DNA of 64,000 nucleotides from Romboutsia hominis (GTDB lineage: Bacteria; Bacillota; Clostridia; Peptostreptococcales; Peptostreptococcaceae). Shown here piece after piece: positions 10,053-31,970 of this stretch. Under the pieces are notes generated by a model that had not been told where the DNA came from, made no database searches, and worked only from the letters and a program-made list of their open reading frames with translations. The DNA lies in the NCBI RefSeq assembly GCF_900002575.1, contig NZ_LN650648.1, forward strand, positions 1,240,001-1,304,000, in the 5' to 3' direction. Position 1 is the first letter of the stretch. Each line of letters begins with the position of its first letter. The translations under genes were made by a program, and so were the position numbers.

Positions 10053-10961
10053 ATGAATGTAAATTTAATAGGTGTACCTACAAATCATGGATGTGACAGA
10101 AATGGAGCTCAATACGGGCCTAAAAAGCTTAGAGAAGCTAATATAGTAAACATAATGAAAAAAAGCGAACTAAGTATATATGATATGGGAGATATCTATG
10201 TAGAAGATATTAGAGAGAAAGATAAGTTTTTAAGCGATAAAAATATAAAGTACTATAATAGCATATATAATGTTAATTTAAATTTAGCACACATGGTATA
10301 TACATCTCTAAATAATAAAGATTTTCCAATTATAATAGGTGGAGACCATAGTATAGCATTAGGAAGTATATCAGGTGCAAGTTCATACTTTAAAAATTTA
10401 GGGGTAGTTTGGATAGATGCACATGGAGACTTTAACACAGAAGTAATATCAGAAAGTAAAAATTCTCATGGTATGCCTTTAGCTTTCTTATGTGGTTATG
10501 GAGATGAAAGATTAGTAAACTTATATAGGCATAAAACTAAACTACATGAAGAGAATGTATTTCATATAGGTGGAAGAGATATAGATATAGAGGAGAGAAA
10601 ATTGTTAGACAATACTAAAGTTAGTATGTATGACAAAACTAAAATTAATAAATTAGGAATTGAAAAGATAATACATGAAATAATTGAAAAATGTAAAAAA
10701 CAAAATGTAGATGCAATCCATATAAGTTTAGATATAGATTTTATGGATAAAGATATAGTTAAAGGAACAGGAACAAGAGTTAGTGATGGATATAGCATAG
10801 AGGATACAAAACTTATATTAAAAGAACTTATAAATAGTGGACTTGTTAAATCTATGGATTTTGTAGAATTTAACCCAATTTTAGATGAAAACGATGAAAC
10901 TCTTAATATATGTACGAACTTATTAGAATATACATCTAACTTAATTAAAAAGTTAAAATAA
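10053..10961 (+). CDS. rocF: Arginase
   Basis: 302 residues, the normal length for bacterial arginase, which hydrolyses arginine to ornithine and urea with two Mn ions. Metal ligands are visible: H99 in GGDHS, D122, H124 and D126 in IDAHGDFN, D227 and D229 in SLDIDFMD. SHGMPLAFLCGYG (138-150) favours arginase over agmatinase. AAGGGGG lies before the ATG. No terminator separates it from the small gene at 11041 (79-base gap). Agmatinase or formiminoglutamase are less likely alternatives. Confidence 0.9.
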   Translation: MNVNLIGVPTNHGCDRNGAQYGPKKLREANIVNIMKKSELSIYDMGDIYVEDIREKDKFLSDKNIKYYNSIYNVNLNLAHMVYTSLNNKDFPIIIGGDHSIALGSISGASSYFKNLGVVWIDAHGDFNTEVISESKNSHGMPLAFLCGYGDERLVNLYRHKTKLHEENVFHIGGRDIDIEERKLLDNTKVSMYDKTKINKLGIEKIIHEIIEKCKKQNVDAIHISLDIDFMDKDIVKGTGTRVSDGYSIEDTKLILKELINSGLVKSMDFVEFNPILDENDETLNICTNLLEYTSNLIKKLK

Positions 10962-11040
10962 ATAAAATAATTACAGATATATAAGTTATAAATAAGAACG
11001 ATTTGTAGATAGATGCAATAGTATAGTAAGGGGTGAAGAT

Positions 11041-11205
11041 ATGACAAAAGCATATTATTGTCCTTACTGTAAAAACAGACTACAAGTAAAAACTTGTTGA
11101 GGTGGAGCCGAATATAGTTGCAGGTTCTGCAATAAGATAATTGCAAATGCTTATGTTTTGACAGAGGAAAAGTTAAGAGAAGAATTAGATAAAAAAGATA
11201 AATAA
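11041..11205 (+). CDS. Candidate selenoprotein: 54-residue zinc-ribbon protein with in-frame UGA
   Basis: AAGGGGTG precedes ATG 11041. The frame runs 55 codons to TAA 11203-11205 with one interruption, TGA at codon 20 (11098-11100). The product is a small zinc-ribbon: C7-P-Y-C10 and C27-R-F-C30, with C19 next to residue 20, giving K-T-C-[UGA]-G-G-A. The frame stays coherent after the TGA for 34 codons and ends in a charged helix. A hairpin typical of bacterial SECIS elements starts 17 bases after the UGA (see next entry). So residue 20 is likely selenocysteine in a vicinal Cys-Sec pair. The alternative is a nonsense mutation of a Cys, Trp or Arg codon. It is probably co-transcribed with arginase. 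I do not recognise the family. Amino-acid-fermenting Peptostreptococcaceae commonly use selenoproteins; the Sec machinery is not in this window. Confidence 0.6.
11098..11133 (+). promoter_or_regulatory. Candidate bacterial SECIS element
   Basis: UGA (11098-11100) is followed by 17 bases and then a stem TTGCA (11118-11122) / TGCAA (11128-11132) with loop GGTTC. The apical sequence GTTGCAGGTTCTGCA is nearly the same as the E. coli fdhF SECIS apex as I recall it (GUUGCAGGUCUGCA), including the GGU loop recognised by SelB. Part of the symmetry comes from the two Cys codons of C-x-x-C (TGC...TGC), so it could be partly coincidental. Confidence 0.55.
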
Positions 11206-11218
11206 GTGTATAAATAAT

Positions 11219-11263
11219 AAATAAAGCTACCTAATATTAGCTAAATTATAGGTAGCTTTATTT
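11219..11263. terminator. Bidirectional terminator between convergent genes
   Basis: Perfect 14-base-pair stem (AAATAAAGCTACCT with AGGTAGCTTTATTT). It sits between the candidate selenoprotein gene and the minus-strand tryptophan transporter gene and has A/T tracts on both sides. Confidence 0.85.
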
Positions 11264-11273
11264 ATTGTTTATT

Positions 11274-11813
11274 TTAAGCTCTAAAACTTCTTTTTAAAGA
11301 TAAATTGACAATATTATATAAAAATATACCAACAAATAAGTTTATAATACAAGTAGGTAGTACTATTGTTAAAAATAAAGGTAAAAATGGAGCAGGAAGT
11401 CCTACGATAGCTTTAGCAGAGATTAAAAATATTGTACCACTAACTAAAGTACCAAAAGGTAGTATAATCATAGCTAATACACTTTCTTTTTTACTTTTAA
11501 GAAATTTATCTAAAAGCTTTATTTTATAAAACATAAACATTAGTAAATATATATAATTAGCAGTTATAACTTTATCTAATAAATTTGGTATTTGGCCACC
11601 TGGAAACTTTGTAGTTAAAGCTGTAAATATTCCAGTGACAATTGCAGATATTACACAAGTTTTATAATCATCTTTATTAAGCATCATTACTATAAATAAC
11701 ATAGCAAGTGCAAAATCAGGTTGCATAGGTAAACCTAAAGCAGGGGTGATTTGATGAAGTATTAAACCTATAGCTAAAAGTATTGAATTTGTTGTTATTT
11801 TTTTTGTTTTCAT
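11274..11813 (-). CDS. trpP: Tryptophan transporter TrpP family
   Basis: 179 residues, a small hydrophobic protein with about five membrane segments. It opens MKTKKITTNSILLAIGLILHQITP and contains a conserved LPMQPDFALAMLF stretch and FPGGQIPN, as in the TrpP/YhaG family of clostridial and bacillar tryptophan importers. GGAGG lies before the start. The gene is read from a leader with a T-box whose specifier codon appears to be UGG, which supports tryptophan as substrate and predicts induction when tRNA-Trp is uncharged. Confidence 0.85.
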   Translation of the reverse strand: MKTKKITTNSILLAIGLILHQITPALGLPMQPDFALAMLFIVMMLNKDDYKTCVISAIVTGIFTALTTKFPGGQIPNLLDKVITANYIYLLMFMFYKIKLLDKFLKSKKESVLAMIILPFGTLVSGTIFLISAKAIVGLPAPFLPLFLTIVLPTCIINLFVGIFLYNIVNLSLKRSFRA

Positions 11814-11944: not shown

Positions 11945-12250
11945 ATAAAAAAACTCCGTCCTAAATAAATAGGACGAAGTTTTCTCCGCGATGCCACCTA
12001 AATTGCAATTTATATACAGTGTGATATCAAATATAAATATATTTAACATAACACTAAATATAAAAATGCCTCTTAAATCAAGTACTAACATACTCTACCT
12101 TCTATAACGTGAAGGACACGGTAAATAGTACTCTCTAAATAGATTTCCCTTTACTCCTCAAAGGCCCATTCATTAAGTTTTTTCATGCTAAGATTCCACC
12201 ATCCTTAGCTCTCTATAACGAACCTAAACTTAATTACTACCCCTTATCAA
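11945..12250 (-). promoter_or_regulatory. T-box riboswitch, tryptophan-specific leader of trpP
   Basis: On the minus strand the leader has the stem I hallmarks AGAGAGCT and GGATGGTGG (about 12215-12190), then AATGAATGG with a UGG specifier candidate at 12168-12166. The T-box core TAGGTGGCATCGCGG, a close variant of the consensus, is at 12000-11984. Immediately after is a terminator (GGACGGAGTT region, stem 11982-11952, then a T-run). T-boxes bind uncharged tRNA through the specifier and prevent termination. UGG fits the TrpP product downstream. Confidence 0.93.
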
Positions 12251-12352
12251 TGGATTAATATTTATTTATATTATGATATTAATAAATTTCAAATTTGTCA
12301 ATATGAAGAAATAATTATATAAAAAAAATAAGTTATATAAGAAATATATTTA

Positions 12353-12441: not shown

Positions 12442-13392
12442 ATGTTATATGAAATGACAAATAAAATAAAAAATGGACATTTAATAAATAGAAAAGAAGC
12501 AATAAAACTATTAGACTATGACTTTGAAAGTTTAGGAAAGTTTGCAAATGAAATAAGAGAATATTTTTTACAAAATGAATTTGATATTTGCTCAATAGTT
12601 AATGGTAAAAGTGGAAAATGTAGTGAAGACTGTAAGTTCTGTGCACAGTCATCTTATCATACTACAGATATAGAAGTTTACCCATTAAAAGATACAGAAT
12701 ACTTTGTAGAAGATGCAAAATATCATAAAGATAAAGGGATAAAAAGATATTCAATAGTAACATCAGGAAAAAAATTAAGCAATATAGAAATAGATAAAAT
12801 AGTAAACTCTTATAAGGCTATAAACAAATATGTAGACATAAAAACATGCGCGTCACATGGTTTGCTTAGTGAAGAAGATCTAAGAAAACTTAAAGAAGCT
12901 GGTGTCAAAAGATATCATAATAATTTAGAAACATCAAGAAATTACTTTGACAATATATGCACAACACACACTTATGATGAAAAAATAAAAACTATAAAAG
13001 ACGCACAAAGTGTAGGACTAGAAGTTTGTAGTGGAGGTATATTTGGTCTTGGAGAAAGTGAAATAGATAGAATTGATATGGCTTTTGAGATTAGAGATTT
13101 AGGGATAAAGTCAATACCACTTAATGTACTAGATTATATAAAAGGAACAAAAATAGAGAGTAAATCTATTAAGGAAGAAGATTTTTTAAAGATGGTAGCT
13201 ATATATAGATTTATAAACCCAAGTGCTCAAATAAGATTAGCAGGTGGTAGAAATTTACTAACAAACTATGGAGAATTAGCTTTTAAATGTGGTGCTAATG
13301 CTACTATAAGTGGTGATTTATTGACAACTTGCGGAAATAGCATAGCTGATGATATAAAAATGATAGAAAAATTAGGATTTGAAATTAGATAA
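12442..13392 (+). CDS. bioB: Biotin synthase
   Basis: 316 residues. Radical SAM enzyme that inserts sulfur into dethiobiotin. The C-x3-C-x2-C cluster motif is C60, C64, C67 (KCSEDCKFCAQSS), followed by HHTT-like YHTTDIEVYP. N-L-E-T-S (about 165-170) and the ASGR-like RLAGGRN near the C-terminus match ligands of the [2Fe-2S] site region. AAAGGAG lies upstream. First gene of the bio cluster; the next gene begins 13 bases after its stop. Confidence 0.97.
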   Translation: MLYEMTNKIKNGHLINRKEAIKLLDYDFESLGKFANEIREYFLQNEFDICSIVNGKSGKCSEDCKFCAQSSYHTTDIEVYPLKDTEYFVEDAKYHKDKGIKRYSIVTSGKKLSNIEIDKIVNSYKAINKYVDIKTCASHGLLSEEDLRKLKEAGVKRYHNNLETSRNYFDNICTTHTYDEKIKTIKDAQSVGLEVCSGGIFGLGESEIDRIDMAFEIRDLGIKSIPLNVLDYIKGTKIESKSIKEEDFLKMVAIYRFINPSAQIRLAGGRNLLTNYGELAFKCGANATISGDLLTTCGNSIADDIKMIEKLGFEIR

Positions 13393-13405
13393 TTTAAAAG
13401 GTTGG

Positions 13406-14110
13406 ATGATAAATATGGGAAAAGGCATATTTGTAATAGGAACTAACACAGACATAGGAAAGACTTTTGTAAGTGGAGCTATAACTTATAAATTAAAAAA
13501 ACATAATAAAAATGTAATACCATATAAGCCAGTACAAAGTGGAGGTATAGAAGAAAATATAAAAATAATACCGCCAGATATTAAATATATAAGAGATATT
13601 TGTGACTTAGATATAGATTATAAAACTATGAATACTTACTGCCTAAAAACAGAAGTGTCACCTCATTTAGCGTGTAATATAGAAAATGTATATATAAATA
13701 AAGAAAATATAATAAATCATTATAACAAACTTTTAAAAACATATGATTATGTTGTAGTTGAAGGTGCTGGAGGTATAGTTGTTCCAATAACTAATGATTA
13801 TTTTTTATATGACCTTATAAAAGACTTAAATATGGATGTAGTAATAGTAGCAAGTGCATCTGTTGGAACTATAAACCATAGTGTATTAACCTATGAGTTT
13901 TTAAAGTCTAAGAATATAAAATGTAGAGGAATATTTATAAATAATTACAATAATCAGTTTTATGAAGATGACAATATAAAAATGATAGAAAAAATAACCA
14001 ACCTTAAGGTACTAGGTGTTTTAAATAAAATTAAAGAGTTTAATAAAGAAAGTATATGTAAAGAATACGACAAACTTGATTTAGAAAATATACTTTCATT
14101 GTTTGAGTAA
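13406..14110 (+). CDS. bioD: Dethiobiotin synthetase
   Basis: 234 residues from ATG 13406 (ATG 13415, three codons later, is also possible; the AAAAGG site at 13396-13401 does not decide). An ATG further upstream at 13379 overlaps bioB and is less likely. The enzyme closes the ureido ring of biotin using ATP and CO2. The P-loop GTNTDIGKT (about 12-20), KPVQSG and VEGAGGIVVP motifs are all typical of BioD. Confidence 0.95.
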   Translation: MINMGKGIFVIGTNTDIGKTFVSGAITYKLKKHNKNVIPYKPVQSGGIEENIKIIPPDIKYIRDICDLDIDYKTMNTYCLKTEVSPHLACNIENVYINKENIINHYNKLLKTYDYVVVEGAGGIVVPITNDYFLYDLIKDLNMDVVIVASASVGTINHSVLTYEFLKSKNIKCRGIFINNYNNQFYEDDNIKMIEKITNLKVLGVLNKIKEFNKESICKEYDKLDLENILSLFE

Positions 14111-14159
14111 AAATTGTATTAAACATAGATGATTTTTATAAAAGTAAGGGAGAAAAAGT

Positions 14160-15536
14160 ATGAGTATGAAAAAACTTCAAGAAAAAGATTTAAAATATAT
14201 ATGGCATCCTTGCTCTCAGATGAAGGACTATGAAACTTTTAAACCTATAGTAATAGAAAAAGGTAAAGGTGTATTTTTAGAAGATGTCAATGGAAAAAAA
14301 TATTTAGATGCAGTTTCATCTTGGTGGGTAAATTTATTTGGTCACTCAAACGAAAGAATAAATAAGGCCTTATACAATCAAGCAAATACTTTAGAACATA
14401 CTATATTTGCAAACTTTAGCCATAAACCAGCCATAAATCTATGTGAAAAAATTATAAATATAACTCCAGATAGATTAGATAAAGTATTTTTTGGAGATAA
14501 TGGATCTTCAGCTATAGAGATAGCTTTAAAACTAAGCTTTCAATATCATCAACAGATAGGAAAGTGCAAAAAAACAAAGTTTGTAAAAATTAGTGATGCT
14601 TACCATGGAGAAACAACAGGAGCTTTAGCAGTTTCTGATATGGATTTATACAGTAAAATATATAAACCAATGTTACTTGATACTGTAAAAGTAGAAGGAC
14701 CAGATTGCTTTAGATGTAAGTTTGATAAAAATAGAGACACCTGTAATGCAGAGTGTTTTATAAATATGGAAAACACTATAAAAGAAATTCATGAAGAAGT
14801 AAGTGCAATAATAGTAGAACCTATAGTTCAATGTGCGGCAGGAATGAAGATATATTCACCTAAGTATTTAGTTCATCTAAGAAAATTATGCGATAAGTAT
14901 GATATAAATCTAATAGCTGATGAAATAGCAGTAGGTTTTGGGCGTACTGGTAAAATGTTTGCTTGTGAGCATAGTGATATTTCACCAGATATAATGTGTT
15001 TATCAAAAGGACTTACAGCAGGTTATATGCCACTATCATTAGTTTTAATGAGTAACAAAATATATAATGCTTTTTATGATGAATATAATACAATGAAGGC
15101 ATTTTTACACAGTCATAGTTATTCAGGAAATGCACTAGGATGTAGTGTAGCAGTTGAGACTTTAAAAATATTTGAAGAAGAGAATGTATTAGATAAAAAT
15201 AAAGATAAAAGTGATTATTTAAGAAAAAAGGTGGAAAGTGTATTAAAAGACATACCATATGTTGGTGAGTACAGACAAATAGGTATGATAGGTGCTATAG
15301 AATTAGTTAAAAATAAAGATACTAAAGAACCATTTGAAAGTGAAAAAAGAGTAGGGTACAACATATATCAAAATGCCTTAGAAAAGGGAGTTTTACTTAG
15401 AGCTTTAGGAAATATAATATACTTTATGCCACCATATATTATAAGCAAAGAAGAAATAGACTTTATGGTAGAAGTAGCTAGAGATAGTATAATAAAATAC
15501 TTTAAGGAAAATCCAGTTATTGATAAGGAGATATAA
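14160..15536 (+). CDS. bioA: Adenosylmethionine-8-amino-7-oxononanoate aminotransferase
   Basis: 458 residues, class III PLP aminotransferase. Visible: [11 protein letters not shown] (15-25), [21 protein letters not shown] (112-120), YHGET, D254 in [12 protein letters not shown] and the PLP lysine K283 in [13 protein letters not shown]. It makes 7,8-diaminopelargonate in biotin synthesis. AAGGGAG precedes ATG 14160. It carries several extra cysteines around 183-199, also seen in related clostridial enzymes as far as I recall. Confidence 0.96.
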
Positions 15537-15537
15537 T

Positions 15538-16077
15538 ATGAACAATAAAACTAGAGAAATAACACTAGTAGCATTATTATCAGTAATAATAGCAATATCA
15601 GGAACATTTAAATTACCAGGAATTATACCAGGAACAGAATTTCAAATGTCAGCGCCAATTGCTATAGGTATATGTTCTACTTTTGGATTTAAAAGATATA
15701 TAAGTGCAGGAATAATAGCTAGTATGATAAACCTTATTATGGGAACTCATACAATTTTAAATGTAATAGTAGCTATGATATTTAGAGTAGTAGCAGGTTC
15801 ACTAATAGGTATTTTAGGTAGCAATATAATAGTAGTATCAACAGCTGGTATAGTAGGTACAGCAGTAGGTAGAGTAGTAATGGCAAGTATTACAGGTACA
15901 CCATTTAAAGCATTAATTTTATCAGCACTACCCGGGATGATTTACACATTATTGTCTTCATATTTTATATATAAGACAATAGAAAAAATAGTAAAAGTAA
16001 CACCTTATAAGTCATTTATAAAAAAGTATGATAAAAAAGAAAATGCAGTAGTAAATATTAAAGAAGAATTAGTATAA
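15538..16077 (+). CDS. Small membrane protein of the biotin operon, ECF S-component-like
   Basis: 179 residues from ATG 15538 (AAGGAGAT upstream overlapping the bioA end). An upstream in-frame start at 15520 lies inside bioA and is unlikely. Five or six membrane helices, first one LVALLSVIIAISG, which has the small-residue pattern of ECF S-components. The sequence does not show the usual BioY motifs, so it may take up biotin or a precursor (pimelate, KAPA) or be a permease of another type. The basic C-terminus ends KENAVVNIKEELV. The role is inferred only from the operon. Confidence 0.65.
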   Translation: MNNKTREITLVALLSVIIAISGTFKLPGIIPGTEFQMSAPIAIGICSTFGFKRYISAGIIASMINLIMGTHTILNVIVAMIFRVVAGSLIGILGSNIIVVSTAGIVGTAVGRVVMASITGTPFKALILSALPGMIYTLLSSYFIYKTIEKIVKVTPYKSFIKKYDKKENAVVNIKEELV

Positions 16078-31659: not shown

Positions 31660-31830
31660 AGAATATAATTTAAGTATTATAGGCAGGTCTCCTGGCTTAG
31701 CTTCATTTTACTACTTTCCCTTCCCATAATAAATTACAGTGGTTTTGAAAGTTTCATCAGCTTTACAGTAGCGGGGGCTGCAGAGGAATCTAACCTCTTT
31801 CCCTATTAATTTTAATTAAAAAAACCTAAA
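31660..31830 (-). promoter_or_regulatory. Cobalamin riboswitch
   Basis: On the minus strand GGGAA (near 31804) is followed by AGATTCCTCTGCAGCCCCCGCTACTGT and, nearer cbiM, the B12 box AAGCCAGGAGACCTGCC (about 31699-31683). These are the conserved core elements of the class I adenosylcobalamin aptamer, in correct order and about 150 bases long, leading to the terminator above. Confidence 0.95.
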
Positions 31831-31970
31831 ATACAAATTTTTAATTTATCACATATTTATATAATACTACAACTTTTATTATATTCCTCTATTTTTTATA
31901 AAAAAATATTAAAAAATTTAATTAAATCTTAAAATATATAGATTTATAAATAATATTTATTTAAAATTTA

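Follow-up and report, generated by a model that had tools for sequence, protein, structure and literature searches.

Gene organization at the locus

The window, by which we mean the whole 64,000-nt stretch of Romboutsia hominis DNA that was analysed, contains a short, unannotated frame with a single in-frame TGA, situated between an arginase-family gene and a convergent gene that resembles a tryptophan transporter gene. The features of the locus, and others identified nearby in the window, are as follows.

10053-10961, + strand: arginase-family gene, directly upstream, with no terminator-like site before the putative selenoprotein gene
11028-11036, + strand: ribosome binding site AAGGGGTGA, from the sequence
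11041-11205, + strand: predicted gene for a 54-residue zinc-ribbon selenoprotein (CPYC ... U ... CRFC), ATG at 11041 and TAA at 11203-11205
11098-11100, + strand: in-frame UGA at codon 20, preceded by Cys19 and followed by Gly21; the sole in-frame TGA, predicted from homologue comparison to be read as selenocysteine
11117-11133, + strand: bacterial SECIS-type hairpin (GTTGCAG / loop GTT / CTGCAAT), under the constraints of the bSECIS model (PMC13188914)
11210-11272, + strand: terminator hairpin 3′ of the gene (fold of -28 kcal/mol, z-score -7.2)
11274-11813, convergent to the putative selenoprotein gene: apparent tryptophan transporter gene (TrpP-like), judged by eye
11967-12259, - strand: T-box leader upstream of the 11274-11813 gene
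12442-16077: apparent biotin synthesis cluster, with genes resembling bioB, bioD and bioA and one for a bioY-like or other ECF membrane protein, from sequence only
31665-31844, - strand: cobalamin riboswitch (Rfam RF00174, 120 bits)

Translation of 11041-11205 with the UGA read as selenocysteine (Sec, U) gives MTKAYYCPYCKNRLQVKTCUGGAEYSCRFCNKIIANAYVLTEEKLREELDKKDK. An earlier note on this DNA had described a frame with a ribosome site and one TGA at codon 20, which on re-reading is intact over its 54 codons, and a vicinal Cys-UGA pair between two CxxC motifs, which corresponds to Cys19-Sec20 between CPYC and CRFC. When all 1,880 TGAs of the window were screened on both strands by combined gene and SECIS criteria (an ATG with a ribosome site, a frame open for 30 or more further codons, and a hairpin of the bSECIS type), the TGA at codon 20 was the only one to pass. 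Ribosome sites of the GGGGTGA/AGGTGA type are found at the equivalent place in most relatives. The terminator hairpin at 11210-11272 is also fit to end the convergent gene.

Co-transcription with the arginase gene is possible, since no terminator-like site separates the two. The gene does lie directly behind arginase, as had been remarked, but this proximity is not conserved in relatives, where the genes alongside (judged by eye) include those for a histidine kinase, an L,D-transpeptidase and LarC, among others. No conserved operon partner was detected among the relatives, and no neighbour that points to a function.

Homologues and the residue at codon 20

Whole-genome searches that read through stop codons covered 71 genomes of the same family, of which 18, Romboutsia hominis included, have a homologue whose TGA falls on the identical codon. 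A second family of the order contributes two more such genomes (G520 and G529), giving 20 distinct genes from 20 genomes, nine genera and two families. Eleven further genomes of the order and class encode an otherwise similar protein with Cys in this column. The earlier note had proposed a search for UGA or Cys homologues and had named Trp, Arg or a random residue at codon 20, or the lack of any homologue outside the strain, as signs against selenocysteine; neither Trp, Arg nor any other residue occurs in the column among the 20 UGA and 11 Cys genes, and the UGA homologues are spread over the nine genera. A search of a plasmid collection returned no match. Two matches from Bacteroidales (L049 and L050) were rejected as unrelated CPYCK proteins that lack the Sec/Cys column.

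The nearest points of comparison are an orthologue from Romboutsia timonensis (L048) and a paralogue, the more typical copy, elsewhere in the Romboutsia hominis genome at 867,843-868,001 (G000:C1; region 867,843-868,010, L065 9844-10011). The paralogue and the orthologues of Romboutsia timonensis and relatives share with the window copy its length, its UGA codon and its SECIS, but have the motif DGUG or SUG where the window copy has CUG, and their identity to it is about 45%. The residue before Sec20 is thus Cys19 in the window copy and Gly or Ser in other members. The paralogue is flanked by genes for two YhgE/Pip-like membrane proteins and by a convergent DEAD-box helicase gene.

Two side observations concern individual homologues. 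Genes of genus g14 (L007, L040 and L042) contain a second TGA near codon 51, which is probably a true stop, so that UGA appears to serve as both Sec and stop codon within one gene. A Cys-form zinc ribbon in genome G579 (L063 637-1647) shares one open frame with a DMT-type transporter that precedes it, possibly as a fusion or an overlapping gene.

The SECIS-type hairpin

The hairpin downstream of the UGA consists of seven base pairs formed by GTTGCAG (11117-11123) and CTGCAAT (11127-11133), closed by the loop GTT (11124-11126). In the bSECIS model the distance from UGA to loop is 16-37 nt and the minimum free energy is -7.5 kcal/mol or lower (PMC13188914). The apical loop, which begins 23 nt past the UGA, lies within this range; the distance of 17 bases given previously refers to the start of the stem, with 16 nt intervening. 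At -7.1 kcal/mol, the local hairpin is borderline against the published energy criterion, and the 56-nt region folds at -10.8 kcal/mol with a different pairing favoured and a z-score of only -0.64, so that single-sequence folding was unconvincing as proof of a SECIS. No SECIS model matched in an Rfam search. The case rests on comparative evidence; the single-sequence fold does not carry it.

Counting stem pairs against synonymous recodings was likewise not significant as a test. Half of the recodings of the window copy reach at least as many pairs (p = 0.52), because the amino acids force most of them; the earlier suggestion that the symmetry of the stem is partly imposed by Cys codons was accurate in this respect, synonymous recodings usually pairing equally well. 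Three more discriminating signals, namely the loop G, codon choice and covariation, were used in place of the pair count. Loop position 1 is G in all 20 Sec genes and in none of the 11 Cys genes, and the apical pair varies through CG, UA, UG, AU and GC forms. Of the 42 Cys codons that fall inside the hairpin (C27/C30), 37 are TGC, compared with 10 of 42 for those before the UGA (C7/C10) and a genome-wide TGC share of 24%. The codon for Thr28 is ACG in all five cases, a codon that makes up 3% of Thr codons. Hairpin pair counts exceed those of shuffled controls and of all slid controls. Kinship of the sequences inflates these hairpin and codon statistics, an effect from which the control of codons before versus after the UGA within the same genes suffers less. 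In the window copy itself the apex codons TGC AGG TTC TGC have a joint synonymous probability of ~7e-4, a codon-usage product that was computed post hoc and serves only as a guide. The hairpin-specific signals mark the UGA genes and are weak or missing in the Cys genes.

Selenocysteine decoding genes

The absence of SelB/SelC had also been named as a finding that would speak against selenocysteine; selD, selA and selB are located together at 594-599 kb of the genome, followed by tRNA-Sec, in one cluster. Among the other genomes, selA scores over its cutoff in 17 of 19 with the Sec form compared with 5 of 11 with the Cys form; both Sec-form genomes that lack selA over the cutoff are incomplete or fragmented drafts, and one of them has a fragment of the gene. 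The selD gene (L064 4177-5217; G000 about 594.2-595.2 kb) has an in-frame TGA of its own, and SelD is therefore probably itself a selenoprotein.

Predicted zinc-ribbon fold and family assignment

The earlier statement that no named family shows this pattern did not hold, since the protein falls in Pfam Zn_ribbon_6 (PF07191), the family of YfgJ, and lies near the NCBIfam family NF041197, below the cutoff of the latter. All 13 aligned members match PF07191 with E of 0.01 or lower (best 5e-15), and the window copy scores 28.7 against a gathering cutoff of 25. The match covers the second of the two PF07191 ribbons only (profile positions 28-64 of 67). In the reverse direction, a profile of the selenoprotein family finds the E. 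coli and Salmonella YfgJ structures with E of about 1e-12. A structure model, computed with Cys in place of Sec for the window protein and with 14 locus proteins, has a pLDDT of 87, and its best PDB match is YfgJ (2JNE), at 1.6 A over 39 columns. By sequence comparison the protein is not a complete YfgJ but a single-ribbon homologue, corresponding to the C-terminal zinc ribbon of the E. coli protein on its own.

The C-terminal ribbon of YfgJ (PF07191; PDB 2JNE, 2JRP) aligns end to end with the new protein (CPDCHQPLQVLKACGAVDYFC..GLISKKRV), and the Cys of its ACG motif (ACGAVDYFC) occupies the Sec column. YfgJ thus comprises two ribbons and this Cys, whereas the new protein has the second ribbon only, with Sec replacing the Cys, and has CxxC in place of the C-x(3)-H of YfgJ. 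The YfgJ ribbon retains four further residues that could bind zinc (C, C, C, H), and the Cys/Sec is therefore probably a fifth, reactive residue. No function for YfgJ-type ribbons was found.

The closest catalogued selenoprotein entry is NF041197, the dual CXXC motif small (seleno)protein (OS_HP3, WP_425411677.1; hypothetical protein DW, SMF39960.1), which is likewise small, with two CxxC motifs and Sec between them. It was the top NCBIfam match for all eight members tested, with residues 7-34 of the window protein aligned to profile positions 1-28 and both knuckles collinear, and it is conceivable, if rather doubtful, that the present family is simply a part of NF041197 that has already been catalogued. 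That reading, which contests the claim of novelty and not the explanation preferred for the gene, draws on these matches, on a name that places Sec between two CxxC motifs and on the motifs RxU and GxU listed for NF041197 selenoproteins in a review. The scores are 17.6 bits for the window copy and 17.7-25.4 for other members, below the curated cutoff of 40, which was exceeded in none of 300 genomes of the phylum, while PF07191 matches every member. Furthermore, the motif of the new family is (G/S/C)UG as opposed to RxU and GxU, and the NF041197 selenoproteins that deep-Sep names come from Desulfosarcina. As judged from profile scores and listed motifs, NF041197 may be a distantly related branch of this ribbon family. 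A literature search, which covered few subscription journals, found no paper on a zinc-ribbon selenoprotein in these bacteria. On balance we favour the reading that these single zinc ribbons from the family of Romboutsia and its relatives form a selenoprotein family uncatalogued at the curated level, in which Sec would be a fifth chalcogen beside a Cys4 zinc site, the window gene being a lineage-specific duplicate with an evolved vicinal Cys-Sec redox pair.

Function of the window copy

The earlier proposal of an unannotated candidate selenoprotein is borne out by the UGA and Cys homologues, the decoding genes and the SECIS signals, and 11041-11205 is very probably a functional gene in which the UGA is decoded as selenocysteine. 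That the UGA is instead a true stop, ending a 19-residue peptide beyond which any similarity is due to chance or is a remnant, appears extremely unlikely. Gene finders do end the frame there, and 3 of the 50 window ORFs that reach 150 aa end in UGA, but 20 genes stay homologous to YfgJ and to the Cys forms on both sides of the UGA, as far as codon 40, and the codon bias and the loop G are found downstream of it.

In the main rival account, the genuine selenoprotein gene is the one at 867.8 kb, and the window copy is a duplicate of it that is now decaying, its UGA inherited and its product no longer of consequence. The window copy, with its vicinal Cys-Sec (CUG), was found in this genome only among the genomes searched; it is the most divergent of the same-family set, at 30-50% identity to the others, and lacks the otherwise near-invariant Ser35. 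Its changes relative to the paralogue are nearly even across the three codon positions (21, 16 and 25), a more relaxed pattern than between the paralogue and the homologue L003 (8, 3 and 21). This even pattern is also compatible with functional divergence, however, and the frame is open with no frameshift and retains the four ribbon Cys and the Sec-Gly. In simulations of drift from the paralogue to the divergence of the window copy, the frame stayed open in 2-6% of runs, and the frame together with C7, C10, C/U20, G21, C27 and C30 was kept in 0.1% or less. The hairpin is likewise kept, with a G-C apical pair of its own and rare codons, and the ribosome site and terminator are intact, all of which makes decay of the copy improbable.

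Proposed mechanism and significance

If the window copy is a functional selenoprotein gene, the hairpin at 11117-11133 would guide SelB and Sec-tRNASec in decoding the UGA at codon 20 as selenocysteine. The product, 54 residues long, would form a zinc ribbon on its own, a homologue of the C-terminal YfgJ ribbon (PF07191), in which Cys7, Cys10, Cys27 and Cys30 probably bind zinc and Sec20 would stand in for a fifth conserved cysteine, located between the two knuckles on the hairpin. A reactive selenolate beside such a zinc-thiolate site would most likely engage in thiol/disulfide or oxidant chemistry or in metal transfer; for a redox role specifically, the chances appear roughly even. The computations establish homology, the exchange of Sec and Cys at one position, selection specific to the SECIS, the decoding machinery and a predicted fold; Sec insertion itself, the zinc ligands and the redox or metal role are inferences. 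Cys19 and Sec20 of the window copy could form, or cycle through, a selenenylsulfide. Mammalian thioredoxin reductase has a GCUG tail with a selenenylsulfide. Vicinal Cys-Sec pairs are present in SaoC, HgcA, MbdU and KCU-star (PMC13188914), and these proteins, like thioredoxin reductase, resemble the window protein in having adjacent Cys and Sec, the folds being unrelated and the analogy chemical only.

The finding would add a selenoprotein that is unnamed in current protein family libraries and that is shared by several genera of Romboutsia-type clostridia. It would be unusual for selenium to lie beside a probable structural zinc site, since most characterised selenoproteins are thioredoxin-like. 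That some lineages spend Sec on the conserved third cysteine suggests that this residue is probably reactive rather than structural, and Sec at this position may thus provide a testable handle on the whole YfgJ-type family.
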